Shown here in pieces: positions 8,026 through 33,673 of a stretch of 64,000 nt of DNA; the stretch's first letter is position 1, and every line of letters begins with the position of its first letter. The notes beneath the pieces were generated by a model, which saw only the letters and a program-made list of their open reading frames with translations, made no database searches and was not told the DNA's origin. A program made the position numbers and the translations under genes. The stretch is from Apostichopus japonicus (Eukaryota > Echinodermata > Holothuroidea > Aspidochirotida > Stichopodidae), in NCBI RefSeq assembly GCF_037975245.1, contig NC_092568.1, positions 39,572,631-39,636,630 of the forward strand, given 5' to 3'.

Positions 8026-9309
8026 AGCAACAAATGTATTACGAAACCATTAGTAGAAACCGAACAATATGTCGAAAGCTTGAAAATGGCTTGTATTGAC
8101 ATCGAATAACGACTTTCCACAATAAGTTACTTCATACTACATGTTTTAAGTCGTTCATGATGACATATTACCACTGCAAATTCTGATTTTTCAGTCAATC
8201 CGCGCTACAAACCAAAATGGATCGAAACTAGTAAGTGAATAAGCCACACACAAAGTAGTGTGAGGTGTATATTCATGTATTAGATTAATTTCCATAGTAA
8301 TAGAGATCTGATAAATTATTTAGTAAATCCAATACATATATAACTCAAATAATGGGTAACATAAATTGTCTTATATTGTAGGTTCAGTCCTTATGCCACG
8401 TCCATCGAATTGTGTATACCATTAGGGAGCATAATGTGGACGCAATAATGTGCACGTGTGAAGTAGGAATTTTCCAGGAAAACGCTAACAAAGTGGATTG
8501 TTAATGAATAGAAAAAGCGAAAAAAGAAATGGAACTTGCTTCTAAGTTCTTGGTGAAATATGCATGCAATTCCTATGAACCGTTTTTGAGATATTGACAG
8601 TTGAAGTTGCCACCTAATAGATAATGTTATGATTTCCTTTAAAATGTACCTCTAATTTTATACCCCACTATTGGATGCATCCATAATGTGAATGTACCAT
8701 ATATAGGTATTGGTATTTTATGAACTTCACATCCCCTTTAGACAAACTAGTAATCCAATCCAAGGTCAAATCAATATACTAAAAAATGAAGAAAAGCAAA
8801 ACACGTTTTGTCAGTTTTTAGCTATGACGTCACACCTGTTTGCTGCAAGTTCACTCATGGTACGAAAGGTGGCAACTTCAGCTGTCAATATCTCAAAACG
8901 GGACATGGTTATTAATGCAAAATTCACTTGAATGCTTAGATTATGTTCCTCTTTAATATATAAGACGAAATTTTGACCTAGACTACATTACAAGTTTCTC
9001 CATTACAGTACAGAATGTACTTGTTTGGAGGAACATTGTTACGGGAAAGAATAGTCTGGGTTTAGCCCATTATACCTGTATCGTATTTGAAATAAAGTGT
9101 ATAAAACATTTTCTTCCTTATTCTTCATCCCTACCTGCAGCGATGAAAATTCCCCAGGGAATGTGAGTTGCATCAACTTTTTCCGTTCAATTTTCTAAGT
9201 AATATATATCTAAGTACACCAAGTTCTTTCATACTCTAATTAGTCAGGGCTGAAGTCGAGTTAAATACATACGAGTCAAGGTTTGTGTGGGGTCCCAAAG
9301 CAGGACCCA
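8026..9309. other. No recognised gene
   Basis: The only open frame of note (8710-8931, +) shows no domain. Nothing else stands out. Confidence 0.4.
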
Positions 9310-9935
9310 AGTTCTGATCATAGCACCGACTTCAGCAGCAAGAAGCATTGGCTTCACCTTTCATGGCAAGCATTGTTTTTAGCAGCACAACAAACGGTAC
9401 ACTTCGTTTCATTTATTCGTATTCTGCTCAACTATTGCCCATGGAGTCATATCATCTACGCTGGGTTATTGTCACTCCCTGTTGTAATGCCCCGTGCTAT
9501 TACAGGTCTTGCAGAATGCTCAGAACAATGCAGCAGTAGCACAAAAAGTAGCAATTCAGATCTCTAGTTTAACAGCACTTCACTGATTGCTCGTCTCATA
9601 TCGTATATTGATTGTGAACTTTCGTTTACTATTTACAAATTTCGCAATATCCTGCTCCACCTTATCCTTGTAACTTAACCCAGCCTGGTTCTTTGACTGC
9701 TCCCTTCGTTCAGCTACAATGAATCTTCGCAACCAAACAAAATGGAACCTTGTCCCAGCTGGCCGTTCAACATTCCCTGTTAAAGCTCCTGTGCTTTTTA
9801 ACTCATTCTGGTCATCACGTCACAAACTCATATCTTCAATTCTTAAATGCTAATTGGCAAATTCAATATAATCCATCTTCACATAAACCACCAGAAAATG
9901 CATTGATGTTATCAACTGTTGAGGATACTAGCTAA
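9310..9935 (+). pseudogene. Decayed CR1/L2-like LINE reverse transcriptase C-terminus
   Basis: Read across frames, this stretch gives the end of a non-LTR reverse transcriptase ORF. It shows LQNAQNNAAV (usual form LQRVQNAAAR), then a variant of the HSLHWLPV region. A late block reads RSATMNLRNQTKWN...FPVKAPVLFNSFW, matching the usual R-F-S-x-A-A-P-x-L-W-N-S-L motif, and ends ISSILK. Several stops and frameshifts make it non-functional. It abuts the start of the array at 9936. Confidence 0.65.
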
Positions 9936-10067
9936 TCAAACCAGTAAAAAAGCCAAGGAAAACTGTTTGTTTAAATTAAAATAAACTGACATTATAAACT
10001 TACTTTGTTTTTGTTTTATTGTTTTTCTCTTTTGTATATTAATTCGTTCTTTCTTCTTTCCATCTGT

Positions 10068-10090
10068 TCCTTTCTTTGCAGCCGGTAAGT
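10068..10090 (+). other. Candidate 3-nt micro-exon, copy A (CCG)
   Basis: A pyrimidine-rich tract ends CTTTGCAG, followed by CCG (10082-10084) and the strong donor GTAAGT. The distance to the next acceptor (copy B) is 395 bases, a normal small intron length. If spliced in frame it would add one codon. Confidence 0.45.
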
Positions 10091-10465
10091 ATTTATCATG
10101 CTTAGGGTAGTAGAACATTGTTATAATATATTAACACGAGGAAAGTCAATCCTGTTAATTCTTTATTATCGTACACAATTTGAATAAAATGTTAGAATTT
10201 TCACAGCATTCGTAATGCAATAATATGTTTATCGACTATGTATGGCAATGTCAATGAAGACAGAACGATTGTTGTAATTAATTTGTGCCTTTAACCTTTA
10301 ACCATTGATGATATGAGGTAGTGAGGTGATGAGCGAAAACAGGGAAAAAGCCTAAGTAAAACTACTTGCGTCAGCTATAATAAACTAACATTTTAAACTC
10401 CCTGTGTTTGTGCTTTTACTATTGTTTCTACATTATATAACGATTTGCTATTTTCTTTCATCTAT

Positions 10466-10488
10466 TCGTTTCTTTTCAGAGGGTAAGT
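10466..10488 (+). other. Candidate 3-nt micro-exon, copy B (AGG)
   Basis: TTTCTTTTCAG precedes AGG (10480-10482) and GTAAGT. Because the triplet begins AG, a second acceptor two bases downstream is also possible. Right after the donor the unit is broken by the 10490-11940 insertion. Confidence 0.42.
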
Positions 10489-10489
10489 T

Positions 10490-11516
10490 TGTAACATAAT
10501 TAAAGTCATGGGGACACGCGACGAATTTCCGCTCATTTGCGTTGCAAAATTTTTTTCTGGGATGTAGCTCAATACACTCAAAAAGTTTGAACCCTAAATA
10601 TTATTTAATTACGTTCTAATTAGCTAAAATAAACGTACATTTTCACCTACGAAACGACTGATCTTTCACTAATATGCAAATTACGTGACGTGTTCGGAGT
10701 GACTCTCGTTGTGAATGGTATGGAAATGCGACAATATGAATGTGTTGAATGCCTAGCCAAAACTGGAATACTATACTACACAGTATCCTATTACTAACGT
10801 ACCTGTAAGGTGGCATACTCCTATTAGAGTCTATATCAATCCGCTCGATTGTTCTCCTTCGGGAAAGTGCCAAAAAGCAGCAGGAGAACATCTTTTGTGA
10901 CCTGTTATCAATCATAATCTAGTTTTTTTGTGGCTTGCATGTTGAAGAGCATGAATGGAAGTACATGTGGTGAGAAAATTTGGTCAATTGAGGCAATTTT
11001 AGACCCCTTTAGGCCTCCCAGGGAGCAGCGTAGGAAATTTGTTTACCACTGAGTGAAGAGGTTTGTTTACAAGTGACGAAAACTTCCGGCTCGGATGGCA
11101 AAAAATCTAGATGGTCATGATACGGAAAATTGATGGTGCCATGAAAGGCCAACTTGTCAGCTATCCGGTGATGGGTAGCGTTTGGCTAGTGAAAACTTCT
11201 ATCTAGACTTAGAGACCACATTACTTTTGTGATTTAGTGTGTAAGTCAATGGGGCTTTTAATGAGCGTTTGCTACCTGTCAGCCATATGACACACAGTTT
11301 ACTGCACTGTGCGATATACCAGGAACGTCGCAAAACTAGTGCATGTTATAAAACGGACACGCGATTGAGCAATTTGGCTACAAAAGCCAATAATCTATAT
11401 GCGTTCAGGCTCACCGGAAGTGCACGGTCACTAAAACACTCTAGTTGTGCTCAAAGGAATTAAAATATAACAAATGAAGGAGCAATTACAGGAGTAAAAA
11501 ACGGTCGCACATGGCG
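10490..11516. other. Insertion in the array, left part; no recognised gene
   Basis: Sequence unrelated to the array unit begins shortly after copy B's donor. No domain is recognisable here. It continues into the minus-strand open frame at 11517-11792 and ends near 11940, where array-type sequence resumes. Confidence 0.4.
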
Positions 11517-11792
11517 TTAAATGCTAACAAATTTGCGTATTTGTTTCATACCAGTCCAGATTCTCCAAGCGATTGGCTGGCAGTATACGTCATTGGCTGC
11601 TGCTTCCGCCTGGTTGTCATCGTCGTCAGATTCATCCGTTTCTGGCTCAAAAATATAGGGTTTTATTTCTCCTTGAGGTGGAAATTCGTAATCCTTATCC
11701 CTTTCCCCATCCACATCCCTTTCAGACAATGGAATTTCATCAGATTCTAAGGCTTCTGTCTCAATCGCGTCTAATTTCGTGTTTAGTTTCAA
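11517..11792 (-). CDS. Partial acidic protein fragment with I-K-P-Y-I-F-E-P motif
   Basis: A 91-codon frame from ATG at 11792. Residues ~17-40 are acidic and polar, followed by GEIKPYIFEPETDESDDDD at ~41-59. The motif (I/R)(K/R)PYxFEP followed by an acidic stretch resembles the N-terminal part of invertebrate proteins annotated as P2X7-intracellular-domain-like, some of which belong to repeated gene families. The cysteine-rich part expected next is absent. It sits inside DNA inserted between copies B and C, so it may belong to a transposon. Identification is tentative. Confidence 0.35.
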   Translation of the reverse strand: MKLNTKLDAIETEALESDEIPLSERDVDGERDKDYEFPPQGEIKPYIFEPETDESDDDDNQAEAAANDVYCQPIAWRIWTGMKQIRKFVSI

Positions 11793-11991
11793 TGCTGCGC
11801 AGCAGTGTTACTTTTGGACCGATCTGCACTGCAAAACTGCACGTCTACAAATTTGCATACGAAAGGACAATGCAACCAATTACACAAACAGTGACTTCAA
11901 ATACCGCAAAATTTAGAATTGAAGAATTTTAGTAACGGAACCCTTCATGGACGAGTCAGGATTGGCCTTTCTCTTTTCTTCTCTGTATCTT

Positions 11992-12015
11992 TTCCATTTT
12001 TTGCAGAATGTAAGT
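11992..12015 (+). other. Candidate 3-nt micro-exon, copy C (AAT)
   Basis: TTTCCATTTTTTGCAG precedes AAT (12007-12009) and GTAAGT. The following TTTTTTCATGATTTAC is shared with most other copies. The intron to copy D would be 311 bases. Confidence 0.45.
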
Positions 12016-12305
12016 TTTTTCATGATTTACATTTGTAGATAAATATCAGTATCTAATAACACTTCAACGAAACCACCAATGGGAAAGTCAACGACGATAG
12101 AACAATTATTTTGAAATTAATGTTTAATTTTAATACTTAACCAATGGTGAATTGAGCTAGTGAGGTGATGAACCAAAAGTCGGAAAATCAGTTCAGACAA
12201 ATAGTTGTTTAAATTATAATAGAGTCAGAATTTAAGATTCACTGTAATTGTATGTTTACTGTTTTCTCTATTATATGATGGTTTGCTCGGTCTTCTTTCT
12301 ATCTA

Positions 12306-12329
12306 TTCCATTCTTTGCAGAATGTAAGT
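12306..12329 (+). other. Candidate 3-nt micro-exon, copy D (AAT)
   Basis: CCATTCTTTGCAG, then AAT (12321-12323), then GTAAGT. It has the same triplet as copy C and similar flanks, so C and D are probably a recent pair. The intron to copy E would be 424 bases. Confidence 0.45.
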
Positions 12330-12732
12330 TTTTTAATGATTTACTTTTCTGTATAAATGTCAGTATCAAATAACTTTCAAAGAAACCATCATTGAATTCA
12401 AATCATAATAATCCTTTTTTTCATACACAATTTGAATGAAATATTACTAATATCACAACACTGGTAACTCGCAGTTTAATACAATAAATAGTTTATCGAT
12501 TATTTGAATGGTTATGTCAATGAAGATTGAACAATTGTTTTGAAAATTATTTGTAACTTTACTATTCAACCATTGATGATATGAGCTAGTGAGCCACAAT
12601 CAGGAAAAACGCTTATGAAAACTTGTTGTTTCACTTAAATGAAAGTGACATTTTAAAGACGCCGCGTTTGTCCTTTTCGTGGGCTTCATTTCTCTATTAT
12701 ATAATCAATGGTTCTTTTCTCCTTTCTATGTA

Positions 12733-12756
12733 TTTGTTTCTGTGCAGACGGTAAGT
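12733..12756 (+). other. Candidate 3-nt micro-exon, copy E (ACG)
   Basis: TTTGTTTCTGTGCAG precedes ACG (12748-12750) and GTAAGT. This is the last intact core before ~10 kb of inserted DNA; the next is at 23086. Confidence 0.45.
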
Positions 12757-13079
12757 ATTTTAAAGGTTACCGTTTGTAGATACGTATCAGTATCTAATCC
12801 CTATTCAAAGAAAACCTTATTGGAATCATATCCTGTTTAATCCTTATTTTCATTACACAGTTTAAATGATATATTATAATGTTCACAACATTGGAGATTG
12901 ACAATTTAATACAATAGCGTGTTTATCGATTATATGAATGGCAGTGTCAGTGAAGAACTGTAATATTTAACCATTGATGATAATTATGAGTTAGTAAGGT
13001 GATGAGCTGCAGGGTAAAAGCTGATTTAAAATAGTTGTTTCAGTTTTATTAAATGAGAATAAACCCTGGCGTTTTGCAG

Positions 13080-13848
13080 TGACCTCATAATAGAGACTAA
13101 TATTCCTTACACCCTCTGTAAAATAACCAGTCAAAACCACCTTTACCCGAATTTCCAGGAATTGTGTAATTAATTGTTTACACCTACAGTGTTGGGGGCC
13201 ATTAAATTCATTTTAATAACGAGGGAGCTTCAAAAATTACGTCAGCAAGCCACATCGTAAGTTACACAATTCCGCTCTCTGCATCTCTACACTTATTCTC
13301 GGAGAATGTTTGGAAGTTGGTGGTTGGTGGTTGTAAACAGGAGAGCGGATGAAGGAGCAGGGAAGGGAAACGATATTATGTTATTCTTGCCAGGAAATGG
13401 TATCCAGAGAAAAGAGAACGCACTAAAGCACCAGGCTTACCCCTCCTTCGCATAACTGTTACTAGTGTCGGCAGTACTAGCATCAGAATAACTGCCAGTC
13501 TCGGCAATGGATGCGGTCTGTTTAGCAAGCTCTAGGTCTCGTTGCCTCAGTTCCTCCACTGTGTATTCATGTTCGAATTGATTCAAGTCAACCCCTTACT
13601 TTCATACCATCTTTTTCTTTCTTTTGCTTGTGCAATTTTAATAATTTTTGGAATTGGTAACGCGATTTCTGTTGAAATGCGATATGTGGCTCGCTTACGT
13701 CACGAATAGCCGGAATTCATAAAAATATGGCGAATGCCATGGGTGACAATTAAATCGATTTTTGAGGTTCTGACGAAAAGAGGGTACTGCAAAACGATAT
13801 TCTCTAAGCAGAAAAGGCTAGGATTGATTTCCTATTGTTTGCTTACAT
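13080..13848. other. Insertion in the array
   Basis: Array-type sequence stops near 13075 and resumes near 13848 (GTAAAGTCATTG). The insertion holds the coding-like stretch at 13441-13589 on the minus strand and nothing else that I recognise. Confidence 0.4.
13441..13589 (-). CDS. Exon-like coding stretch, function unknown
   Basis: Read on the minus strand from 13589 the frame is open and coding-like: DLNQFEHEYTVEELRQRDLE, then LAKQTASIAETGSYSDASTA and DTSNSYAKEG. It ends in a good donor (GTAAGCC, its GT at 13439-13440). The sequence just upstream reads KIAQAKERKRWYESKG in another frame, so a frameshift or a missed acceptor is present. No family is recognised with confidence. Like the 11517-11792 frame, it lies on the minus strand inside DNA inserted into the array. 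Confidence 0.35.
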
Positions 13849-13948
13849 TGTAAAGTCATTGTTTTTATGCCTGACTGTGTTTCTCTATTATATAATGGTT
13901 TGTGCTTTTCTTCTATCTATCTATATAACCCTATACCCTAAAAGGGAG

Positions 13949-14742
13949 AAGGTGTGTGTGTCTAGTTGAAAATTGAACTTCCTTGTTTAGATTTTTTTGC
14001 TGTAATTTTATTGTAATATGTTCATTTTATCTCAGTGCTTCCTTCAATTTTACAGACCCAAGACTATATTTCTGGGAGAGAGATTTTGCAGGTATTTCTA
14101 ACGTTTGCCTAAGGGTACCGATTAGGTGATATCCTTTAGCTACATATAACTTTTACGACTTTTGACGAATCTCGAATGAAATTCAATTCATGTTGGTTTG
14201 CTTGAAGCTATACAAGCATTTCAAGAAAACGCAAATAATGGGAATGAAGAATGACCAATACGACCAAATATATCAAAAATCATAGTAACACAGAAATTAT
14301 CTTCCGTAAGATGAAGATATGTTAATTAAACTTGGTATGACCACCAAGGTGTGTGTGTCTAGTTGAAAATTGAGCTTCCTTGTTTAGATTTTTTTGCTGT
14401 AATTTTATTGTAATATTTTCATTTTATCTCAGTGCTTTCTTCAATTTTACAGACCCAAGACTATATTTCTGGGAGAAAGATTTTGCAGGTATTTCTAACG
14501 TTTGCCTAAGGGTACCGATTAGGTGATATCCTTTAGCTACATATAACTTTTACGACTTTTGACGAATCTCGAATGAAATTCAATTCATGTTGGTTTGCTT
14601 GAAGCTATACAAGCATTTCAAGAAAACGCAAATAATGGGAATGAAGAATGACCAATACGACCAAATATATCAAAAATCATAGTAACACAGAAAATAGCTT
14701 CCGTAAGATGAAGATATGTTAATTAAACTTGGTATGACCACT
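13949..14742. repeat. 397-bp tandem duplication
   Basis: Two adjacent direct copies (13949-14345 and 14346-14742) differ at only a handful of positions, so the duplication is recent. Each begins with a GT run and TCTAGTTGAAAATTG. A truncated third copy lies at 26463-26577, cut by an AT repeat. All three follow array-type sequence ending in ATCTATCTAT and then AACCCTATACCCTAAAAGGG. Confidence 0.9.
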
Positions 14743-14879
14743 ATGATTCTTACAATAATAGCAAGGTAGAGAAAGAGCCTAACCGTGAGAAGCTGTTTAG
14801 TGATACAAATATTAAATATAGCACTAACTGAGTGTATTTGTAATGTAAGCATACTAAGTATGTTTGATGGTAAATATTA

Positions 14880-14990
<111 letters not shown>

Positions 14991-15031
14991 TAAATATAAA
15001 GGCTCGTGACACAAAGATCCGGGTTTCGGTC

Positions 15032-15093
15032 CTACCTTCGCCTGATGAGTCTCAAAAAAAATCTCAAGAAAAGTCCGAAACAGGTCGTGAAGT
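15032..15093 (+). ncRNA. Hammerhead ribozyme, stem II altered
   Basis: Same stem I (CTTCGC/GTGAAG), CTGATGA, CGAAAC and GGTC as the copy 354 bases downstream. The stem II region is longer and poorly paired, so the copy is probably weak or dead. Predicted cut after 15086. Confidence 0.6.
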
Positions 15094-15398
15094 GGAATTT
15101 TTCTTGCGTGTTATTCTTTATTGATTGACTATATATCTGTCATACCACTTGCTACACATTCAATTCTTATTTACGGCTTGGCGTGCCTATAAAGAGTGGT
15201 TATTCTGTGTAAAATTGTGTAAAAATTGTCAGATTCAAAGCGCCAGGGGTGCACTCTGTACAATCATAATACTTGGGTAGTACGCCCTTAATGACAGTTA
15301 TTCAAAGCCAATTTATACGCTTTAACACATCAGTAGAATCACTGTGGTCGAGTGGTACGGGCTTAGGTTCGTGACACGAAGATCCGGGGTTCGATTCC

Positions 15399-15447
15399 TA
15401 CCTTCGCCTGATGAGTCCCCAAAAAAGGACGAAACCGGTCGTGAAGT
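15399..15447 (+). ncRNA. Type I hammerhead ribozyme, intact core
   Basis: All core parts are present in order. Stem I is CTTCGC with GTGAAG (6 pairs, one G-U), then CTGATGA, stem II GTCC/GGAC around an A-rich loop, GAAA, and a very short stem III (ACC/GGT). The cleavage triplet GTC is followed by GTGAAG, with the cut after 15440. The tiny stem III is typical of minimal hammerheads in Penelope-like elements and metazoan retrozymes, which are thought to act as dimers. That family knowledge is established; activity here is not tested. Confidence 0.78.
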
Positions 15448-15480
15448 GGAATTTTTCTGGTGTGTTATTCTTTATTGATT

Positions 15481-17678
15481 TAGTAGTCCCAGTAGTGACC
15501 TGTGTCCAGGGAAAGTTCCATGGCGGCGAATTTCAAGTTAGTGGAGGGGCATGTGCAAATTTTCTATTTGATAATTTGTTTTAGTCAAATTTATTTACTC
15601 CTACCCTTTAGCCTAGAAATGTTTTAAAGGGGCCCTCTTTCACAGAAGCACTGTAAATCACAAATAAAATGGGTGTTAACTAATGGATTTTTCAGGGCGA
15701 TTTTTTTTTGTCTGGGTAACAGTAGAGCTCTGTCTTTGAATTTTAAACTTAACCTTTCAGTAAACTATCTTACCGCTTGTGTATTTCATTGCTAGATCCA
15801 GATCCGGATCCAGAAAGCTTTTTTTTTCAGAAGATGAATTAAACAACAAAACAATGTTTTGGTTCTGTTGTCATAAGTAAGCCTTGGAACATATGCTATA
15901 TGGCCTATATTTGTGTAAGTGTGCCACCAAGCAATCTAATTGAACACTATTTCTCCAGAAGGACTCATCAAATTGATACTACAGTTTTTATATTGGTTTA
16001 AGTCATTGGTAGAAGATGATCATTCTTGTGTTTGGTGAAGGTGTTATGTTTAACATATTTGCAAATGTTAGCATTGTTTCATTCGGTATGGAATTTGATG
16101 GTGATAGTATGCAAGTAAATGTAACCCCAGCATCATCACATTGTGTATTCATGGGTGGTGTACCACATAGAAATCAGTGAAATAAAGGTTGCGATATTAC
16201 ATTATGAGTCTCAGAGCTCAAGCAGGTAATTTGTAAAATGAAGGTGTATGGTGCCTGCCCGAGCCCCCTTCCTTTGTAGGTTTCTATAGGGAACGGAGAT
16301 AACACAGCATGTGTCACAGATTAGTAATCTGTACTAGTACCATGGACTAACCCCAGGCTCCACAAATTGTCCATTTCATTCACTTCTTTCCATATCACGA
16401 ACCCTCCATGCAGTCTTTGGATGGAATATATGTCACACACCTTAAGTATTATTCCATGCATCATTGTTTCCCCCAGTGCTGTTAGAGGGTCACAGTATAT
16501 TCATAGCTTAATGCACATTATATGTCGCCATAATGTGCATGTTTTTAATTATTTAAATAAATTCTGCATTCGTAGCAATAGCCTAGTTTGCTAAAGTTAC
16601 AACACACTTTACTGTCACCCTAAATGTTTTTTTGTTTTTTTTTTCATATTGTGTATGCTAGTGGTCTAATGCAAGTTTGAAGGAGGAAAATACTTTATAG
16701 TCATGCGTGTTACACACAAAACCTTGACCTGCAACACCCTAAATAAAATCAACCAATTGGCACAGTAGAAAAATCATTGACATTTTCTTAGTATAAGGGT
16801 TTCAGACTGCTACTTTGAAAATTGGTGGGCCCTGTCCTTTAGAATGTAACTGTACTATTGTTGAAGGGCATGCCCATGTTCGTTGCTGTTTTGTAGAACA
16901 TTCAAAATTAAGTAAGTGGGTGAAACTCCGATTGTCCATGTTCTGTTTCTCAGTTACACGTCACCTATATATTTAATTCTTTAATAGCGCTAGGTTTACA
17001 ATCCTCAAGTCCAGACTATGGACTTCAAGCTGATTTTCTGCTTTTCGGGTCTTAGACTAGGGTTAAGATGGATACAGACTTCAGCCAGAGTCCAGTCAAA
17101 TCAGCTGCAATATACTGAGATGGTCACTTCTGGAAAAACCTTTACAATTATACTCAATACTTTTTGCAATTTGTGGCTGTAATATCAGCAGTTTAAGAAA
17201 CAATTGTTGGAGGTACTGCATTAATGTACAGTATTCTGTTCATGTTTAGTTTTATGTCTCATATACAAGCCCATGTTGGCACCGTGTGATACTTTATAGA
17301 ATGAAATTGTATTATATGTCACCTACCAAATATGAAAGTCAGAAGCCCAGACTGAGTAAACTGTCCAAGCATTAAGATTGTCTGTTGTAGCTGTCAGCTC
17401 TATGACTAATAGGTTAAAATGCACCTTTGGTGACTTCCTTTTGTTAGGGTAGGTCAGTTTCACATTTAATATTCCCCAGTTGCATCAATGCAACTTGCAC
17501 TTTTATAGCGTCATACTGTCAAAGTGTCACATTTTGTACTTTTCATTCGAATGCTTAGTATTGCTGACGTAGGTCCCAGGGGGACCAAAAATTCCAATAT
17601 ATTTTGTAAAAAATTACCTCTTATTTGTCAATTATGAGCCATATCCTATTACTCTGGTTATATATAAATATATATCTT
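15481..17678. other. Spacer between inverted retrozyme copies; no recognised gene
   Basis: About 2.2 kb between the tandem retrozyme and its inverted truncated copy. I find no domain-bearing frame, RNA gene or repeat boundary in it. Confidence 0.4.
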
Positions 17679-18039
17679 TGGGACTCATCAGGCGATGGTA
17701 TGAATCGAAACCCCTGATCTTCGTGTCACGAACCGAATTCCGTACCACTCGACCCCAGTGATTCTACTGATGTGTTAAAGCGTATAAATTGGCTTTGAAT
17801 AACTGTCATTAAGGGCGTATTCGTCGTCGTCCTATGAGTCATGACTGACCCTTTGTGACCCTTTTGATGATGACGTTCCAACCATGCACTTCTATCCTGG
17901 GCATATCGGTGAGCTGCGCAGATGTTCATGCCGGTGATCTCTTTTATCCCTTGGGCGTATTACCCAAGTGTTATGATTATTGTACAAAGTGCACCCCTGG
18001 TACTTTGAATCTGACAATTTTACAGAGAATAACCACTCT
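17679..18039 (-). mobile_element. Truncated retrozyme copy, inverted
   Basis: On the minus strand this matches 15192-15420: the same AGAGTGGTTATTCT start, the A/B-box-like region and CGCCTGATGAGTCCC. It stops after the first arm of stem II, so the GAAA part of the ribozyme is lost. A ~110-base segment near 17825-17950 is extra compared with the plus-strand copy. Confidence 0.7.
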
Positions 18040-18069
18040 TGTTATGTTTGTGATTATACATGTTATGAT

Positions 18070-18073
<4 letters not shown>

Positions 18074-18123
<50 letters not shown>
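18074..18123. repeat. (AT)n microsatellite
   Basis: About 50 bases of AT repeat lying between the retrozyme copy and the SINE-like piece at 18124. Confidence 0.93.
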
Positions 18124-18125
<2 letters not shown>

Positions 18126-18280
18126 GGTTTCGAACCTCTGGACATACAATCAGCATCCATAGCATAGTGGTTAGGGTGTCCACGTACAGAGCGGAAGGCC
18201 CGTGGTTCGAATCCCGGTGGAGGCTGAAAGTTTTTCACTGTTCTTGATTTTCCAACTCATTACGATTTTCATTTATCTAT
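18124..18280 (+). mobile_element. tRNA-derived SINE-like sequence
   Basis: Contains TAGTGGTTAGGGTGTCC (A-box-like, ~18165) and GGTTCGAATCC (B box, 18204-18214) at normal spacing. The ends AGCATCC and GGAGGCT nearly pair like an acceptor stem with one mismatch, but the T-stem is poor. A second copy at 18492-18611 carries a deletion after the B box. I read these as SINE heads, not a working tRNA gene. Confidence 0.5.
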
Positions 18281-18491
18281 TCATTTGCCTTTGTCGTTTA
18301 CCTCCATTGCATTAACATAAAGTCTGTTCAAAGTATTTATTTCGAGACCCGGCTTTAGGAATCGCAAATGATTTCGAGTTGGTTAGCATCATGTTTGATC
18401 TGTAGAGTAAGGCAAAATATGTCACCAAAAACAGAACTAGTATTGTTCGATACAGGTGACAAACGCCTACAGTAGAATTACGACCTTCCTT

Positions 18492-18607
18492 ACCGGTTTC
18501 GAACCTCTGGACTGGACATACAATCAGCGTCCATAGCCTAGTGGTTAGGGTGTCCGCGTAGAGAGCGGAAGGCCCGTGGTTCGAATTTTTCAACTCATTA
18601 CGATTTA

Positions 18608-18611
<4 letters not shown>
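18492..18611 (+). mobile_element. Second SINE-like copy, internally deleted
   Basis: Matches 18127-18210 closely, including CCGGTTTCGAACCTCTGG and the A-box region. It then jumps from GGTTCGAA directly to TTTTTCAACTCATTACGA, losing ~45 bases. Its 3' part forms the left arm of the palindrome at 18578-18735. Confidence 0.5.
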
Positions 18612-18702
<91 letters not shown>

Positions 18703-18735
18703 AATTAAATCGTAATGAGTTGAAAAATTCGAACC
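18578..18735. repeat. Near-perfect palindrome with AT-repeat centre
   Basis: The 35-base arm at 18578-18612 is the exact reverse complement of 18701-18735 (the arm contains TTCGAATTTTTCAACTCATT). The centre is (AT)n with a few changes and is self-complementary, so nearly all 158 bases could form one hairpin or cruciform. The right-arm sequence recurs at 26183-26217 next to another AT tract. Confidence 0.93.
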
Positions 18736-18743
18736 AATACTCC

Positions 18744-18746
<3 letters not shown>

Positions 18747-18792
<46 letters not shown>

Positions 18793-18793
18793 G

Positions 18794-18867
<74 letters not shown>
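18747..18867. repeat. (AT)n microsatellite
   Basis: About 120 bases of AT repeat with scattered ATGT/ATAC variants. It is bounded by AATACTCCATT on the left and AATGGAGTATT on the right, another short inverted pair that comes from the end of the transposon starting at 18870. Confidence 0.93.
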
Positions 18868-18869
<2 letters not shown>

Positions 18870-20243
18870 CACGCAAAGAAAATGGAGTATTGAATATGAA
18901 CACTTTCCAGGTGTTGTAACCGTTCACCCTACACCTGAAGGGTTACTCTGACCCTGAGTAGGGTTACATAATTTATGTAGCGTGGATTTTTTAACACCTG
19001 CAGAAAGTGTACTTTCAGTTCGAGCATTCCGATTGGTCAAACCTCCCGTCAGCTGGATTCTTAGTGCAAGTTAAGTGTTTAAACGGTACCACCGTACCGT
19101 GACCACCCATTTACCGTACCTAGCAGTACTTGCAACAGTTTGTCGACATTTTTCGTTACTAAATGTACTATAGTAACCACGGCCATATATATGTTCAAGC
19201 CACAAATCGTTACGTACTCAGTGTGCGATAACGAGCTACAACGGCATGAAAATGACGTTATAGGAGACTGGGGCCTTGGAAGAATTGATTGAAAAATTCG
19301 AAGGTATGTTTTGATATTATGTAAGTGAACGTGACAAGAACGAGATATGCACGACTAAGCTGGGTAGACGAATGCATTTGAATCGCTTGGGTTACGTAGA
19401 CCTAACGTTAAAGTCATACAATAAGTTAATATAATAGGCTAGCTGCTGTTTGTCATAGTCAACTCATAATTGTCAACGAATCAGTGTAGCCTACATACAA
19501 GTAAACATTAAACGGAATTGCCTACGGACGGACGGAGGACTTTGGTCTAGGCCTTTATTGTAATCTAGTGCATTCTATTCCTTTTTGGGCGTTCACCGTT
19601 ACTTCGTATACCCTGCGAGTCACTTTTTTAAGTAGTACTACTACTAGGCCTAGTACTAGTAGGGTATACTTAGGCTATTTCAAGACAATGCATTTTAAAT
19701 AGCATCGGGCATGGGCCTATAGTTACGCTGGTACTATGTTTAATATGGGATATACATATATTCATGTAATGCAATATATAATTACCACTAATTGCCATTT
19801 TAGCTTGTAAGTTGCAGCAAGTAGGCCAAAGCTGATGTGGATTGGTGATACATTTAAACCTAGGCCCAACTATAATTTAGCTATATTATGGAAGTGATAT
19901 AGCTGTTATAATTCATAGCAATCTACACAATTGCATACAGTGGGAGTGAGCATTGTTTTAAGCATTGTTAACATGATGCATTGGTTGTAAAAGATGCCTA
20001 CATTGTCTGATGAAAGTTTAATGCAAGTTCCTGTTTTGACAAGGAATCACTATAGGCCATCTGGCTTTCTAGATTCAAACGTACTTGAAGAAGGTAGAAT
20101 CACAACTGATTAAATTGTGGTCATTTTCTTTAGGAATGTTCATGTTTTGTGAGGGGAACATGTAAATAACTGCTTATGCTCCAAGAATGTTTGAACACAA
20201 CTTCATTATGATGGGAATTTTCTTTTCTTTTCTTTGCTGTTAG

Positions 20244-20560
20244 TTAGGAAGCATCAACTTGGAATTCTATTTGCAAAAGATTTCAGAAAGACCTCAGCAA
20301 TATGTGTTACTTCTTGGAGGAAGCAAAATACATCCCAAGCAGTCATTTGTGATCATCCAGAGACATGCCCTACCCCAGAGGACATTTATGAAGCCATTGA
20401 TGTTTGCTTCAAATTATTCTATGTGTTAAATCTAAATTATACCAAATTGCAAGTCTCGGTGCCTGGGAATTTTTCCAAAAAGTTGTCTACAAGTTGCCTG
20501 GTAGTGTGAAGCGCAACCAGATTCGAGATTTTTATGCTCACCATGCCGACAAAAAAAGAC
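20244..20560 (+). pseudogene. Terminal exon of SAM-associated repeated gene family, frameshifted
   Basis: The acceptor TTTGCTGTTAG is followed by pieces in three frames. These read YLQKISERPQQYVLLLGGSK with HPKQSFVIIQRHALP; then PEDIYEAIDVCFKLFYVLNL; then AWEFFQKVVYKLPG and RNQIRDFYAH. The order matches the minus-strand terminal exon at 35890-36200 (FVVCKGTLLAP, TFVFLERRP, LLKAIDFCFKAMYILDMAY, VWQFIQNVIYEI). I infer one family, resembling the C-terminal region of animal SAMD3-like uncharacterised proteins. Two frameshifts make this copy dead. Confidence 0.6.
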
Positions 20561-21085
20561 AAAGTTACTGCAGTTTAGCAGTTGTCATAGACAGAACTCC
20601 ATGTTTCCTCATCTCACGGATCAGAATGTATGTAAAGTTGTTGCTTATTTGGAATTGTATTTGGGAAGAGTTTTTTCTTTGTGTTTAATTTGGAATACCA
20701 AAGGCACGATCCAACAACAAAGACAAAGTAACTGCAGTGTAGCAGTCATCATAGACAGTACTCCACGTTTTCTCATCCCACGGATCAGCATATATCTAAA
20801 GTTGTTGCTTATTTGAAATTGACTTTGGGAAGAGTTGTTTCTTGTGTTAATCTGGAATACCAATAGGCATTTGCCAACAACAAAGACATAGTCACTGTAG
20901 TGTAGCAGTCATCATACACACTGCACAGCACTCCATGTTTTCTCATCCCATGGATCAGAATTTTCTAAAGTTGTTGCTAATTTGAAATTGACTTTGGGAA
21001 GAGTTGTTTCTTTGTGTTTAATCTGGAATACCAAAAGGCATGTGCAAAAAATAAAGACCAAGTAACTGCACTGTAGCAATTGAAA
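20556..21085 (+). repeat. ~165-bp tandem repeat, about 3.3 copies
   Basis: Four starts of GACAAAGT(A/T)ACTGCAG-like sequence lie ~165 bases apart, each followed by CCATGTTTCCTCAT and TGGGAAGAGTTGTTTCTT variants. The repeat lies directly after the decayed terminal exon, so it would have been 3' UTR of the element's gene. Confidence 0.8.
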
Positions 21086-21874
21086 ATGTTGGCACTTTTA
21101 AGTTGACTTAATTCCACAAGACAATACTTTTATAGCTAAATTGTTCATATTACATTTAATGGGATATAATAAATGGACCTCTGGAATAGGAAGGTAGTAG
21201 GGTGTTTAATTGCTGAAAGTCGCACATTCTGAATTGTTTATGTTGTCATTGCTTTTTGCTCTCTCTTAAATGTACCTTTCTGCTGTGAGCGATTCAAACA
21301 TGCATCCATATTGTTTACCTAATTACTAGGTAATAATTAACCTAAAACCTGTATAAAATATTTACTAAACGGGTGCGATGTAAACTTTTCTGGCAAAATT
21401 TTACATAACAGTATTGTATTTGCGTTACATAATAAACATGTAAAACTTTACAGACCAGCAGTTAAGTAATTTTTACTTAAAGTAAAATTTTACCAAACCT
21501 GTGTAAAACGTTTTCTCAGTGTAAGTGTTCTATTTATAGAATAGGGGTTTGCAATTTCACCTGCAAGTGTCAATTGAACGTCAGTAAGGTGTTGGCTATA
21601 TTCAACACGCAAAAAGTGTAAGAATAGCCAGACATGTGGTGTTACTTCAGCGCTCCCATCAACTGAGTAATAAACACCTTTGAAGAGCTCCATTTAGGGG
21701 ACTGGGTGTGACAATGACACCTGCAAGTGTTGATAAATTCAACACCAGAGAGGTGTTAGATTTTCAACACTCGGAAAGTGTAAAATTAGCAAGGCTGGTG
21801 TTGTCCCTGTACGAGCTAGACTGAAGTGTTTGATATGACACTTATCGATTACTTTTCAACACTCCATTTTTTGA

Positions 21875-21980
<106 letters not shown>

Positions 21981-22021
21981 AATCCGAATTTCTAAAAAAT
22001 AATCCGAATTTCTAAAACTTC

Positions 22022-22200
22022 TACTCAATTCAGCAGGAATCAGTAAGTCGCTTTGCCTTTACAACCATGCCGACATCTTCTCTATAAAATAGTTTCAATT
22101 CCTGCTACTCCTTGTCACTTTCGGTGATCATGCACTGAAGAAGAGCTAGTTTTGCACGAAAGCTCTGCAAAAACCAAACATTGGCTGTTTTACTTCCAAT
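22022..22200 (+). mobile_element. Possible 3' fragment of a Penelope-like or related retroelement
   Basis: Contains CACTGAAGAAGAGCT, then GCACGAAAGCTC, a layout often seen near the 3' end of such elements. The pairing AGAGCT/AGCTCT forms a hairpin. It is not a hammerhead because CTGATGA is replaced by CTGAAGA. Assignment is weak. Confidence 0.3.
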
Positions 22201-22282
22201 CACTTACCTAATTCAATTATTGTATCTCGCTCGAGATCCAGCCTTTCTCTAATTGCAGCATAGTTGTTTAACAGTTTTTCCG

Positions 22283-22291
22283 TTATATATA

Positions 22292-22345
<54 letters not shown>

Positions 22346-22348
22346 TGT

Positions 22349-22417
<69 letters not shown>

Positions 22418-22425
22418 TATATACA
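22283..22425. repeat. (AT)n microsatellite with ATGT/ATAC variants
   Basis: About 140 bases. It interrupts the array: sequence matching the part just after an array donor (GATACGTGTCATTATATCTT) starts right after it. Confidence 0.93.
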
Positions 22426-23070
22426 ATGTAGATACGTGTCATTATATCTTCAACTTTCAAAAACACCACCAGGGATATCAATTAATGTTTAGTTCTATAT
22501 TTCATACTCAATAAAACAAATGTAAGTTTCACAACATTGGTAACGCAATATTTAATACAGGAGCTCTATCTGAGTGTATATGTTATATAAGCATACTACG
22601 ATTGCCTTAATGCTTGGTAAGAGATCAGTTTCATTTGAAAACATGATTGCATATCAAAATGAATAAGCATAACAATTTCGTGTGTATTTTTACTTGTGAC
22701 GAAAAAGAAGAGAACACAGAGAGGGAGGGCATCTTAAAAGTAGATAACGAAAGGAACCCCAAAACGAACGATCAATTGTAGAGGAAAATGATAGCAAAAG
22801 CACTCATACAAAACGCAGTAGCACTTTTAAGTACGTGTCATTATATAGTTACCATAAATATTATTGCCAGGGAAATAAATATCTGTTAAATCTCTGTTTT
22901 CACAGTCGATGAAACTTGTTGTTTGAGTTTTATTAATAATGCTTTGCTTTCTTACACAATTTAAATGAAATATTATAATTTCTACAACATTGAAAACTGT
23001 AACTGTGATTGTATTTTTTCTGGGTTTCTCGATTTAAAACGAGGATTTGTTGTTGTTTTCTGTCCGTCTA

Positions 23071-23094
23071 TTTGTTTCTTTGCAGCCGGTAAGT
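23071..23094 (+). other. Candidate 3-nt micro-exon, copy G (CCG)
   Basis: TTTGTTTCTTTGCAG, CCG (23086-23088), GTAAGT. The intron to copy H would be 505 bases, including a ~290-bp insertion shared with the partial unit just upstream. Confidence 0.48.
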
Positions 23095-23578
23095 CTTTTT
23101 CATGATTTACGTTTGTAGATACGTGTCATTATATCTTCAACTTTCAAAAACACCACCAGGGATATCAATTAATGTTTAGTTCTATATTTCATACACAATG
23201 AAACAAATGTAAGTTTCACAACATTGGTAACGCAACATTTAATACAGGAGCTCTATCTGAGTGTATATGTTATATAAGCATACTACGATTGCCTTAATGC
23301 TTGGTAAGAGATCAGTTTCATTTGTACACATGATTGCATATCAAAATGATTAAGCAAAACAATTTCGTGGGTATTTTTACTTGTGACGAAAAAGAAGAGA
23401 ACACAGAGAGGGAGGGCATCTTAAAAGTAGATAACGAAAGGAACCCCAAAACGAACGATCAATTGTAGAGGAAAATGATAGCAAAAACACTCATACAAAA
23501 CGCAGTAGCAATGTAGTTGTATTATTACTGGTTTTCTCAATATAATATGATGGTTTGTTGTTGTTTTCTTTTTATCTA

Positions 23579-23602
23579 TTTGTCTCTTTGCAGTCGGTAA
23601 GT
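23579..23602 (+). other. Candidate 3-nt micro-exon, copy H (TCG)
   Basis: TTTGTCTCTTTGCAG, TCG (23594-23596), GTAAGT. The flanks are almost identical to copy G, yet the triplet differs at its first base. Confidence 0.48.
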
Positions 23603-23909
23603 CTTTTTCATGATTAACGTTTGTAGATATGTGTCATTATCTCTTCACCTTTCAAAAACATCACCAGGGATATCCATTCATGTTAGTTCTATATCTCATA
23701 CACAATGAAAGAAATATAAATTTCACAAAATTGGTAACGCACAATTAAAAACAGTAGCATGTTTATCGATAACATACATATCGGGGTTTATTTATATAGA
23801 ACGATGAAATGAATTTGTAACATTATCAGTTTACCATTGATTACATTATGTAATGAGGTGATGAACCAACCACGGTGAGAAATTTTGAAGAAAAAAAATC
23901 AGTTGTTTA

Positions 23910-24255
23910 CAGTGGCGTAGGAAGGTACTTTTGAGTGGTGGGGCTGAAGACTGATGGCCGGCCTGAGGGAGAGGTCTGAAATTATTTGGCATTTCCAGGT
24001 GGCCTCAGATGCAATTTAGTGCAATATAGCACACTTCAACCCACCCACTCCATATTGTATATAATTTTGCATTTTCACCTGGCCTTAGATGCAATTTGGT
24101 GCTCCAAATGTTCCAAATGAGAAAAAAATCTCATTTGGAAATGAAAAAGGGGTTTTCTGACTTGCGAAGCGGGGGGGGCGGAATGATACTTCCGCCCCTC
24201 CAAATTTTTCACTGGGGGGCTGGCGCCCCCCCAGTCCCCGGTTCCTACGCCCTTG
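23910..24255. mobile_element. hAT-like non-autonomous element inside the array
   Basis: Begins CAGTGGCGTAGGAAGG and ends GGTTCCTACGCCCTTG. Flanked by GTTGTTTA (23902-23909) and GTTGTTTC (24256-24263), an 8-bp target duplication with one mismatch. Uninterrupted array units have TTGTTTCAGTT here, which confirms the insertion point. Close relative of 608-876. Confidence 0.85.
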
Positions 24256-24353
24256 GTTGTTTCAGTTGAAATAAACTTTTACTTGAAGTCAGTGTGTTTG
24301 TGTTATTACTGTTTTTTTGTCTCTTCAACATTAAGTATAGTTCTTTTTTTTTT

Positions 24354-24376
24354 CTATTTCTTTGCAGGTGGTAAGT
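24354..24376 (+). other. Candidate 3-nt micro-exon, copy I (GTG)
   Basis: CTATTTCTTTGCAG, GTG (24368-24370), GTAAGT. Because the triplet starts GT, the acceptor is also directly followed by a possible donor, as at a recursive splice site. Confidence 0.45.
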
Positions 24377-24752
24377 CTGTGTCATGATTGTAGATTTTGT
24401 GTCTTTTATCTACTCCCATTTTAATCAAACCAAATCCCGTTAGTTATCATGCTAAACTTGCAAGAAATGTAAATTTCCCTACATTGGTAACGCACAATTT
24501 AATAGAGTAACATGTTTATCGATTAAATGCAGTGCAAATTTAGAGAAGAACGTTTTCTTTTGATGATTTTTGTTGTAACCGTACCATTTACCATTGATGA
24601 TATGAGCTATTAAAGTGATGAGCGGAAAACAGGGATAAATTTGAAGAAAATTAGTTGTTTCGGTTATAATAACCTTGCACTTTTAAGTCATTGTGTTGTG
24701 CTTTTACTGTTTTTGCTCGACTGTATTGCGCTTTGTTCTTTTTGTCTCTCTA

Positions 24753-24776
24753 TTTATCTCTTTGCAGATGGTAAGC
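24753..24776 (+). other. Candidate 3-nt micro-exon, copy J (ATG)
   Basis: TTTATCTCTTTGCAG, ATG (24768-24770), GTAAGC. This is the only copy whose donor is not GTAAGT. The next supported plus-strand acceptor is the death-domain exon at 33447, 8.7 kb away. Confidence 0.45.
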
Positions 24777-25079
24777 TTTTTTTCATGATTAAAGTTTGCA
24801 GATATGTGTCATAATCACGCCCCCTTACAGAAAAACCACTAGTGATATCAATTTCTGTTAGTTCTATATTTTCATACAAAGAAATATATTTTCACTACAT
24901 TGGTAACGCACAATTTAATACAGTAACATGTTTACCGATTTGATGTATAGCAATGTAAATTTAGATAGAACGATTGTTCTGGAGTGAATTTGTAACTTTA
25001 TAAATTACCATTGATGATATGAGCTAGTTATATGATTAACAGAAAACAGGGAAAATGTCAAGAAAATTTGTTGTTACAG

Positions 25080-25705
25080 TTAGCCTATACTAAGCTTTTG
25101 GCAACAACTTCTAGTCACGTATCTTGACATAGCTGGTATTTTAGGACAAGTTGTGAATGAAGTAGGGGCACATTTTCCAAAATAACTGTGATGTGATCCA
25201 AGGTCACCAAAGGTCATTTATGAGTCGATATGTGAATCCACCACTGACTCGGTCCAATATGATTGATATTTTGGGACTAGTTGTGAATGGGGTAAGGGAA
25301 CGTTTCCAAACATAACGGTAATATGATCCAAGGTCAACAAGGTCTATAAGGGTAAAAAGCTAGTGTTTTTGGAATAACTTTATAACCAAATTTCCATCAA
25401 GGTTGGGTTACGCTGTTGTAATCCAATAGTCGACCTGCATTTGGGTGACCTTTGACCTCCAGTGCCATGATATGTAACGATGGAAATCGTGGATACCTCT
25501 TACACTTGGTGTGTGAATTCATAACATTGAGAACGAGACCCCTCTAGTATTTGATGGAGGTGTGTATATCCACGTACAGTAGACTGACCTGTGTAAGCAT
25601 GCCGTACTGTTATTGTAAAAGCTAGTTCTGGTTATCTAACAAGCAGAAATCTAGTGCATTGAAGTCATCGAAACCTCAATGCATTTTGCATTCTGGTTCA
25701 TTATC
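25080..25705. repeat. GTCA-rich repeat pieces and a Penelope-like 3' fragment
   Basis: Units with GATCCAAGGTCA and GTTGTGAATG(A/G)(A/G)GTA repeat ~145 bases apart. The stretch then matches 29380-29610 (CCACGTACAGTAGACTGACC, GCTAGTTCTGGTTAT, ATGCATTTTGCAT), the 3' end of a Penelope-like remnant. This fragment stands where the acceptor-NNN-donor core of the next array unit should be. Confidence 0.6.
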
Positions 25706-26079
25706 AACGTTTGTAGATATGGTTTCAAAAAATCACCAGGGAAATCAATTTATTTTAGTGCAATACTTTATACACACAATTTGAAAGAAATTACACTTTT
25801 CACAACATTGGTAACGCAGAATTCAAAACAGTTAAATGTTTATCGATTATATGTATAGCAGTGTAAAATCAGATTGAACAATTGTTTTGGAATGAAGTTT
25901 TAACTATAACATTTTACCATAAATGATATGAGCTAGTGAGACGATGAACCAAAACATATTAAAAGCTAAGGAAAACTAGTTGTTTCAGTTTTATTTAGCT
26001 TATATTTGTAAATCACTTTGTTTGTGCTTTTAATGTTTTCGGTCTATTATATCATGATTTGTTCTTTTCTTCTTTATTA

Positions 26080-33446: not shown

Positions 33447-33673
33447 GATCTTTCGGGTAAATTAGGGGGAAGTTGGAAGAGTCTTGGAAGATTCCTCGGT
33501 ATAGGAGAGGCTACTCTCTACGACTTCCAATACAACAATAGCACCACTCAGGAAGCTGCGTATCAAATGCTTCTTCATTGGGCTCGAAGCAACGGAAGCA
33601 ATGCCAATATTGAGAATCTTGCTGAAGGTCTCAGGAGAGCATGCAGAACTGATCTAGCAGAGTTTGTAGAAGG
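33447..33673 (+). CDS. Death-domain protein, penultimate exon
   Basis: The acceptor TTTCCTCGCAG precedes 75 complete codons, and the donor GTGAGTAAGT follows in phase 2. The product is most of a death domain: DLSGKLGGSWKSLGRFLG (helices 1-2, with the conserved W), GEATLYDFQYNN, EAAYQMLLHWARSNGSNANI (helix 5, W in the usual place) and LAEGLRRACRTDLAEFVE (helix 6). Death domains make homotypic contacts in apoptosis and innate immune signalling; the partner cannot be told. Upstream exons were not found, and a LINE lies immediately upstream. The next exon joins in frame, which makes a real gene or a recent pseudogene likely. Confidence 0.85.

Follow-up and report, generated by a model that had tools for sequence, protein, structure and literature searches.

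The 64,000-nucleotide stretch of the holothurian Apostichopus japonicus genome analyzed here (RefSeq assembly GCF_037975245.1, contig NC_092568.1, positions 39,572,631 to 39,636,630 of the forward strand; hereafter the window, whose own coordinates are used throughout) contains an array of nine diverged repeat units on the plus strand, each of which places a splice acceptor exactly three nucleotides (nt) ahead of a splice donor. A single element just upstream of the first unit is approximately complementary to a block that recurs in the introns of the units, and an exon encoding a death domain lies further downstream on the same strand. Judged from the sequence, the array and its upstream antisense element suggest a splicing switch that swaps one amino acid.

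Nine tandem units with splice signals three bases apart

The motif CAG-NNN-GTAAG(T/C) is found on the plus strand in nine units, each inside a diverged copy of a tandem unit of ~400 bp. The nine positions and triplets listed in the initial annotation were confirmed, as was its remark that the donor GTAAGC occurs only once, namely in the last unit. The triplets are referred to as micro-exons 1 to 9, and splice sites were scored in bits with simple weights taken from general knowledge.

10082..10084, plus strand: micro-exon 1, CCG; acceptor 12.6, donor 11.5 bits
10480..10482, plus strand: micro-exon 2, AGG; acceptor 10.4, donor 10.6 bits
12007..12009, plus strand: micro-exon 3, AAT; acceptor 12.0, donor 7.8 bits
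12321..12323, plus strand: micro-exon 4, AAT; acceptor 10.4, donor 7.8 bits
12748..12750, plus strand: micro-exon 5, ACG; acceptor 8.1, donor 10.6 bits
23086..23088, plus strand: micro-exon 6, CCG; acceptor 10.7, donor 11.5 bits
23594..23596, plus strand: micro-exon 7, TCG; acceptor 9.8, donor 9.1 bits
24368..24370, plus strand: micro-exon 8, GTG; acceptor 13.7, donor 9.9 bits
24768..24770, plus strand: micro-exon 9, ATG, donor GTAAGC; acceptor 10.3, donor 9.1 bits

The nine-unit array is beyond chance. The broader pattern (C/T)AG-NNN-GTAAG(T/C) occurs 11 times on the plus strand of the window and not once on the minus strand; nine of the 11 are the array units, and the two extra matches, at 11235 and 19801, both carry TAG and lie outside the repeat. 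With acceptor and donor scores added, the array junctions reach 18.1–24.1 bits, compared with 10.9 bits for the best non-array AG-NNN-GT among 205 on the plus strand and 13.9 bits among 184 on the minus strand. Each unit thus offers the strong acceptor and strong donor exactly 3 nt apart that are looked for in a 3-nt micro-exon (distance of three bases in 9/9), and the nine candidates, as diverged copies of one unit, form a tandem set of homologous exons of equal length. Pyrimidines occupy 16–20 of the 21 positions counted upstream of each acceptor, at least 60 AG-free bases precede the acceptor in six of the nine units, and none of the triplets is a stop codon.

The introns between successive units measure 395, 1524, 311, 424, 10335, 505, 771 and 397 bases. 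The spacing of ~310–770 given previously therefore describes about six of the eight, whereas the other two (1524 and 10335) are much longer because of inserted sequence. A 422-position profile built from five units was used with nhmmer to delimit the repeat, and 16 plus-strand unit fragments scored above the inclusion threshold.

9901..26075, plus strand: extent of the tandem units, including unrelated inserts (nhmmer, 422-position profile)

A complete unit is roughly 400 bp long. Interruptions affect several copies, the clearest lying between micro-exons 2 and 3, 5 and 6, and 7 and 8, and after micro-exon 9. Near 13.9, 25.1–25.7 and 26.1 kb, the similarity to the unit ends before the junction, cut off by unrelated sequence or TA repeats; the cluster is therefore partly decayed. 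The nine units were initially chosen by the junction motif itself, but none of the units returned by the profile search has a degraded junction; those without one lose their similarity ahead of it.

In an alignment of nine rows, the flanks (190 columns) have a mean pairwise identity of 0.58, and neither CAG nor GTAAG varies at all. Changes were counted on a tree of the nine units derived from the flanks. On this tree, 184 flank columns average 2.02 changes and 11.4% of them are unchanged, whereas 0 changes fall in the eight CAG and GTAAG columns, which points to constraint on the splice signals. Because the units are homologous, these counts do not represent nine independent events. One near-duplicate row, 22427–22566, was left out of the conservation count. 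A fast-evolving triplet was considered, two of its columns having pairwise identities of 0.31 and 0.22 against the mean of 0.58, and was rejected, as the three columns take 4, 4 and 1 changes on the tree, an excess that random flank columns match with P = 0.12. The earlier contrast between fixed signals and a variable triplet thus holds for the signals, which evolve more slowly than the rest of the unit, but not for a triplet significantly faster than it; the triplet appears free to vary, with accelerated change not proved. Four of the nine triplets contain CG, which may mutate fast (the CpG observed/expected ratio of the window is 0.65).

Several other features are interspersed with the units. 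The largest interruption of the array holds a 397-bp tandem pair (13949–14741, plus strand); in each copy, an open segment of 36 nt is bounded by splice-like ends, TTTTACAG ... GTATTT, and the two segments read TQDYISGREILQ and TQDYISGRKILQ. At gathering scores, Rfam returned two matches over 9.0–34.1 kb, neither inside a unit: a Type I hammerhead ribozyme at 15402–15446 (plus strand; 35.1, just above the gathering score of 34) and a tRNA at 18153–18225 (plus strand; 35.5 against 29), which lies beside TA microsatellites and is possibly a tRNA-derived repeat. An open frame on the minus strand (11517–11807), within the long intron that separates micro-exons 2 and 3, carries a PYIFEPE-like motif; it has no Pfam match, and we take it to resemble a P2X7-type C-terminal domain. 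An exact-pattern scan of a viral collection for the unit junction gave 0 matches.

An upstream element antisense to the unit introns

In exon 6 of Dscam, the left intron contains a docking site that pairs with one among several selectors located ahead of the alternative exons, as described in the available text of PMC6071210. The same terms are used below for the candidate counterparts in the array, starting with the element that precedes it.

9807..9847, plus strand: candidate docking site, the approximate reverse complement of a block common to the unit introns

The docking element is situated just upstream of the first unit and was first detected as an unplanned minus-strand match of the unit profile (E 2.7e-4) adjoining the array. 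Of its 41 positions, 32 agree with the reverse complement of the block; the second-best antisense match in the 64 kb has 23, and the maximum for the same 41-base pattern in 200 dinucleotide shuffles of the window is 27. Since this pattern was picked after the match had been seen, the whole-unit profile constitutes the fairer test. Run with filters off, it gives the docking element 10.2 bits (after a composition correction of 11.1 bits), compared with −3.9 bits for the next place outside the array and a maximum of 4.3 bits in 100 block shuffles. A scan of all positions with the unit consensus likewise places the docking element at 34/41 and the next place outside the array at 28. The pattern, consensus and profile scans brought out no further docking site that would correspond to other portions of the unit.

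The relation also holds in the opposite direction. When the reverse complement of the docking element was used as the query, the top eight places in the window were the eight unit-intron blocks, with scores of 54, 43, 39, 38, 37, 36, 35 and 31. The control queries reached 32 (sense, self excepted), 33 (reversed) and 28 (complemented), and are all exceeded by seven of the eight blocks. The mean predicted duplex energy with the eight blocks, −28.3 kcal/mol, ranks the docking element best of 6,394 windows, the next separate place having −25.0 kcal/mol.

Antisense matches of this quality are rare in the window. A scan for inverted repeats with 41-base windows every 25 bases, 152 low-complexity windows being skipped, found a match of at least 30 of 41 within 600 nt for six of 2,407 sampled windows; two of these represent the pair formed by the docking element and the unit, three fall in TA-rich sequence, and one is the hairpin 8576/8866. 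Seven other repeats of the window, tested in the same respect, have no antisense partner above 28 of 41. The array is thus accompanied by one outside element that is complementary to its repeated selectors, a relation that stands out against these controls.

The hairpin (8576–8616 and 8866–8906, 33/41) is the sole other comparably strong inverted repeat outside TA-rich sequence.

The individual selectors are listed below with their predicted duplex energies (kcal/mol), each compared with 500 random windows.

9893..9932, plus strand: degenerate selector u0, before micro-exon 1; duplex −16.7, equalled by 17.8% of random windows
10285..10338, plus strand: selector u1, before micro-exon 2; duplex −45.2, 0/500 random windows
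12140..12176, plus strand: selector u3, before micro-exon 4; duplex −29.8, 0.2% of random windows
12553..12606, plus strand: selector u4, before micro-exon 5, with an 8-base gap in the block; duplex −26.4, 1.4%
12963..13008, plus strand: selector u5, no junction in its own unit; duplex −30.5, 0/500 random windows
23815..23869, plus strand: selector u7, before micro-exon 8, weakest of the eight; duplex −23.9, 3%
24578..24628, plus strand: selector u8, before micro-exon 9; duplex −37.4, 0/500 random windows
25009..25045, plus strand: selector u9, no micro-exon after it; duplex −23.7, 1.6% of random windows
25909..25952, plus strand: selector u10; duplex −27.0, 1.0% of random windows

Leaving aside the degenerate u0, the eight selectors form predicted duplexes of −23.7 to −45.2 kcal/mol that are equalled by 0 to 3% of random windows. 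Five of the nine exons are preceded by a selector (2, 4, 5, 8 and 9), that of micro-exon 8 being the weakest. The blocks end 140–150 nt ahead of micro-exons 1 (degenerate), 2, 4, 5 and 9, and 499 nt ahead of micro-exon 8, with other sequence in between. The nearest exon 3' of selector u5 is 10 kb away, and the unit of u10 (profile match 25693–26075) enters a TA microsatellite before any exon.

The identity of the docking element to the units is 0.72 across 9808–9848 and falls to 0.27–0.42 over about 9720–9800, a region in which the units share 0.49–0.68 among themselves. The element does not resemble an entire inverted unit, although its edge on the array side is not sharp.

Possible host gene and neighbouring features

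The array and the death-domain exon at 33447 are on the same strand, as had been noted before. Together with a probable last exon and a candidate exon upstream of the array, the following features could belong to one gene.

33447..33673, plus strand: death-domain exon with a phase 0 start; acceptor 10.9, donor 10.9 bits
33951..34023, plus strand: probable last coding exon, ending in TAA; acceptor CTCTTGCAG, identified by eye; joined frame open
9141..9162, plus strand: candidate upstream exon of 22 nt; acceptor 10.6, donor 8.1 bits; 2/3 frames open

The open frame around 33447..33673 matches Pfam PF00531 with an E value of 4.8e-15. The eight PDB sequences that it matches belong to RIPK1, THO complex subunit 1 and ankyrin-2. 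The Pfam profile has 86 positions, and residue 6 of the exon is already at position 14, so the beginning of the domain is expected to be encoded further upstream. The candidate exon at 9141..9162 has no homology support. When this exon is joined to a triplet, or to none, and then to the exons at 33447 and 33951, the frame is open to the stop (three triplets and the triplet-free version were translated). The death-domain gene is possibly the recipient of the variable codon; linkage of the array to the death-domain exon is plausible given the common strand and phase 0, but a phase fit is expected one time in three by chance and therefore adds little weight. If the assignment of the host is right, the variable residue would be located directly ahead of the first residues of the death-domain exon; another gene may be the host instead. 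A model of the domain folded without relatives gave a mean predicted local distance difference test score (pLDDT) of 57 and was not used.

Elsewhere in the window, a short segment that translates as GVYAY(V/A)ILKDG(I/R)T is present in four tandem copies on the minus strand (58584–59086), which also has a perfect 49-bp pair inside a reading frame (62920–63016), an apparent case of another tandem exon duplication. Both segments are presumably acetyl-CoA-synthetase-like, on account of their motif. A 53-bp minisatellite of 15 copies (57740–58535) adjoins the synthetase-like segment.

Interpretation and relation to known splicing systems

The leading reading of the locus, to which we give about an even chance, is a mutually exclusive cluster of one-codon exons controlled by RNA pairing. 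Repeated duplication of the ~400-bp unit, comprising intron and exon, would have generated the tandem cluster of 3-nt exons. In the pre-mRNA, the selectors would compete for the single docking element ahead of the cluster; pairing with one of them would draw the upstream donor near one micro-exon and loop out the micro-exons that precede it, so that each message would receive one exon. With phase 0, the inserted codon would specify proline, arginine, asparagine, threonine, serine, valine or methionine, and the variable residue would lie where the first death-domain helix begins or immediately ahead of it, a placement that presumes the general structure of death domains. The full version of this proposal, a Dscam-like cluster in which nine or more mutually exclusive exons alter exactly one residue at the edge of that helix, is a tentative and rather doubtful one. 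Among the three explanations offered in the initial annotation, one-codon alternative exons fare best and gain strength from the complementarity of docking and selector type; that the sites are spliced is what we infer from their signals.

Several observations weigh against a pairing-controlled cluster. No selector was found for micro-exon 3 (in the 1.5-kb intron before it), micro-exon 6 (close before it) or micro-exon 7 (in the intron before it), although all three have intact splice sites; micro-exon 1 has only the poor selector u0, and selectors u5, u9 and u10 belong to units without an exon. The match of u7, at 31, falls within the range of the control queries. When the blocks are considered one at a time, only u1 and u8 find their best partner in the docking element; each of the other six has between 9 and 65 stronger partners among the 6,394 windows. 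Conservation is higher in the columns paired with the docking element than in unpaired ones, but not significantly so (0.78 vs 0.63, p = 0.08), and a G-U pair is kept in 4 of 32 changes at paired columns, a raw count without a computed expectation. The most conserved intronic block comprises unit positions 80–165 (for example, within 24371–24773 on the plus strand; identity 0.757), for which no antisense partner stood out in the window scans, and 62 of 382 equal-length windows, mainly around these positions, are more conserved than the selector block. Towards the array, the similarity of the docking element to the units decreases gradually, to 0.51–0.64 over 9849–9898 and to 0.34–0.50 beyond. 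The nine units have strong splice sites, but those of Dscam-type exons are described as weaker in the available text of PMC6071210. Given the missing selectors, the weak conservation of pairing and the dominance of the 80–165 block, the docking element may be an inverted scrap at the edge of the array.

If the exons are real but not chosen by pairing, they could be independent cassettes that are spliced stepwise and add zero, one or several codons, with the antisense element as an accident of the birth of the array. The strong and unchanged splice sites of all nine, including the three without a selector, agree with such cassettes, and because each exon is 3 nt long any combination of them preserves the frame. 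We nevertheless regard this alternative as unlikely, as it leaves the single antisense element at the upstream edge, and the focusing of its similarity in one block, unaccounted for. A decayed or never-functional tandem repeat, in which the splice-like signals of the ancestor arose by chance and the antisense element is a scrap of an inverted unit, would be in keeping with an array broken by several insertions, with units that lack a junction and with a docking element nearest to its neighbour u1 (alignment score 54 vs 43 or less). It is rather improbable in view of eight signal columns free of change in nine diverged copies, when only 11.4% of flank columns match this, and of the abrupt stop of the docking element's similarity on one side. 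The same signals bear on the earlier suggestion of an exon worn down to its splice sites, which may apply to the ancestor, but mere decay after duplication is opposed by signals that are unchanged among diverged copies.

Splicing decoys are a class of close acceptor–donor pairs that bind the splicing machinery and are rarely joined, so that the intron is delayed or retained. The constraint on the splice signals but not on the triplet would suit decoys, as would the difficulty of defining such short exons across their length. A decoy, however, needs no fixed or frame-preserving length, and exactly 3 nt are kept in all nine units; the objection is softened by the fact that three bases are so few that hardly any length changes would be expected. 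On balance, decoys seem distinctly improbable. Introns made by transposons carry the same short target-site duplication on both sides, and this origin was rejected as the flanking triplets are identical at only one of the eight introns. Recursive ratchet points dividing a long intron, another earlier proposal, find no support and are very improbable indeed. Although acceptor and donor are close together inside a long intron here too, and are repeated along about 15 kb, recursive splice sites are zero-nucleotide AG/GU junctions in the available text of PMC13149111, while three bases separate the two signals in 9/9 units. Each recursive use would therefore add a codon to the message.

The interest of a pairing-controlled cluster of one-codon exons is that 3-nt exons fit poorly with the usual mechanism of exon definition, and that docking and selector control, in the literature consulted, concerns ordinary exons. 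If true, competing RNA structures would be able to select single codons, and the locus would offer a natural setting for testing how the spliceosome chooses an exon with almost no exonic sequence. Splicing would act as a one-residue dial on a signalling domain, producing one-residue protein diversity that standard gene annotation and read mapping overlook.

Searches of the literature, with most subscription journals outside their range, found neither a micro-exon combined with a docking site and a selector sequence nor the combination of micro-exon, 3-nt and recursive splicing; phrases for tandem or mutually exclusive micro-exons matched only through 'microexon cluster', in work that by title and abstract concerns plants or mouse. 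The micro-exon genes of flatworms resemble the array in having many short symmetric exons in one gene. Their exons are longer and form the coding sequence, and we know of no docking element in these genes.

The closest architecture is that of the insect Dscam1 exon 6 cluster, where the available text of PMC6071210 and PMC8042237 likewise describes a single upstream element that has its complement in a block preceding most of the tandem exons, with diverged tandem units and competing pairings. The layout of the array also fits the model of origin proposed in PMC6071210, in which competing selectors arise when an exon is duplicated together with one arm of an intronic stem. The Dscam1 cluster differs in its full coding exons, which are replaced here by 3 nt; several of the units described here have no selector, and the array is known from the sequence of one genome. 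For the exons themselves, the nearest parallels are single 3-nt exons, namely micro-exon 8 of Drosophila homothorax, located between CAG and GTAAGT-type signals (PMC7392893), exon 4d of bee elavl2 (PMC8553928), and those of Ncam and Drosophila TnT cited in PMC8042270. They share with the array the length of one codon and, in the case of homothorax, the type of flanking signals (PMC7392893). In the portions of these sources available, however, such exons are reported singly (PMC7392893, PMC8553928, PMC8042270), whereas nine related copies with different triplets follow one another in a row in the A. japonicus array.

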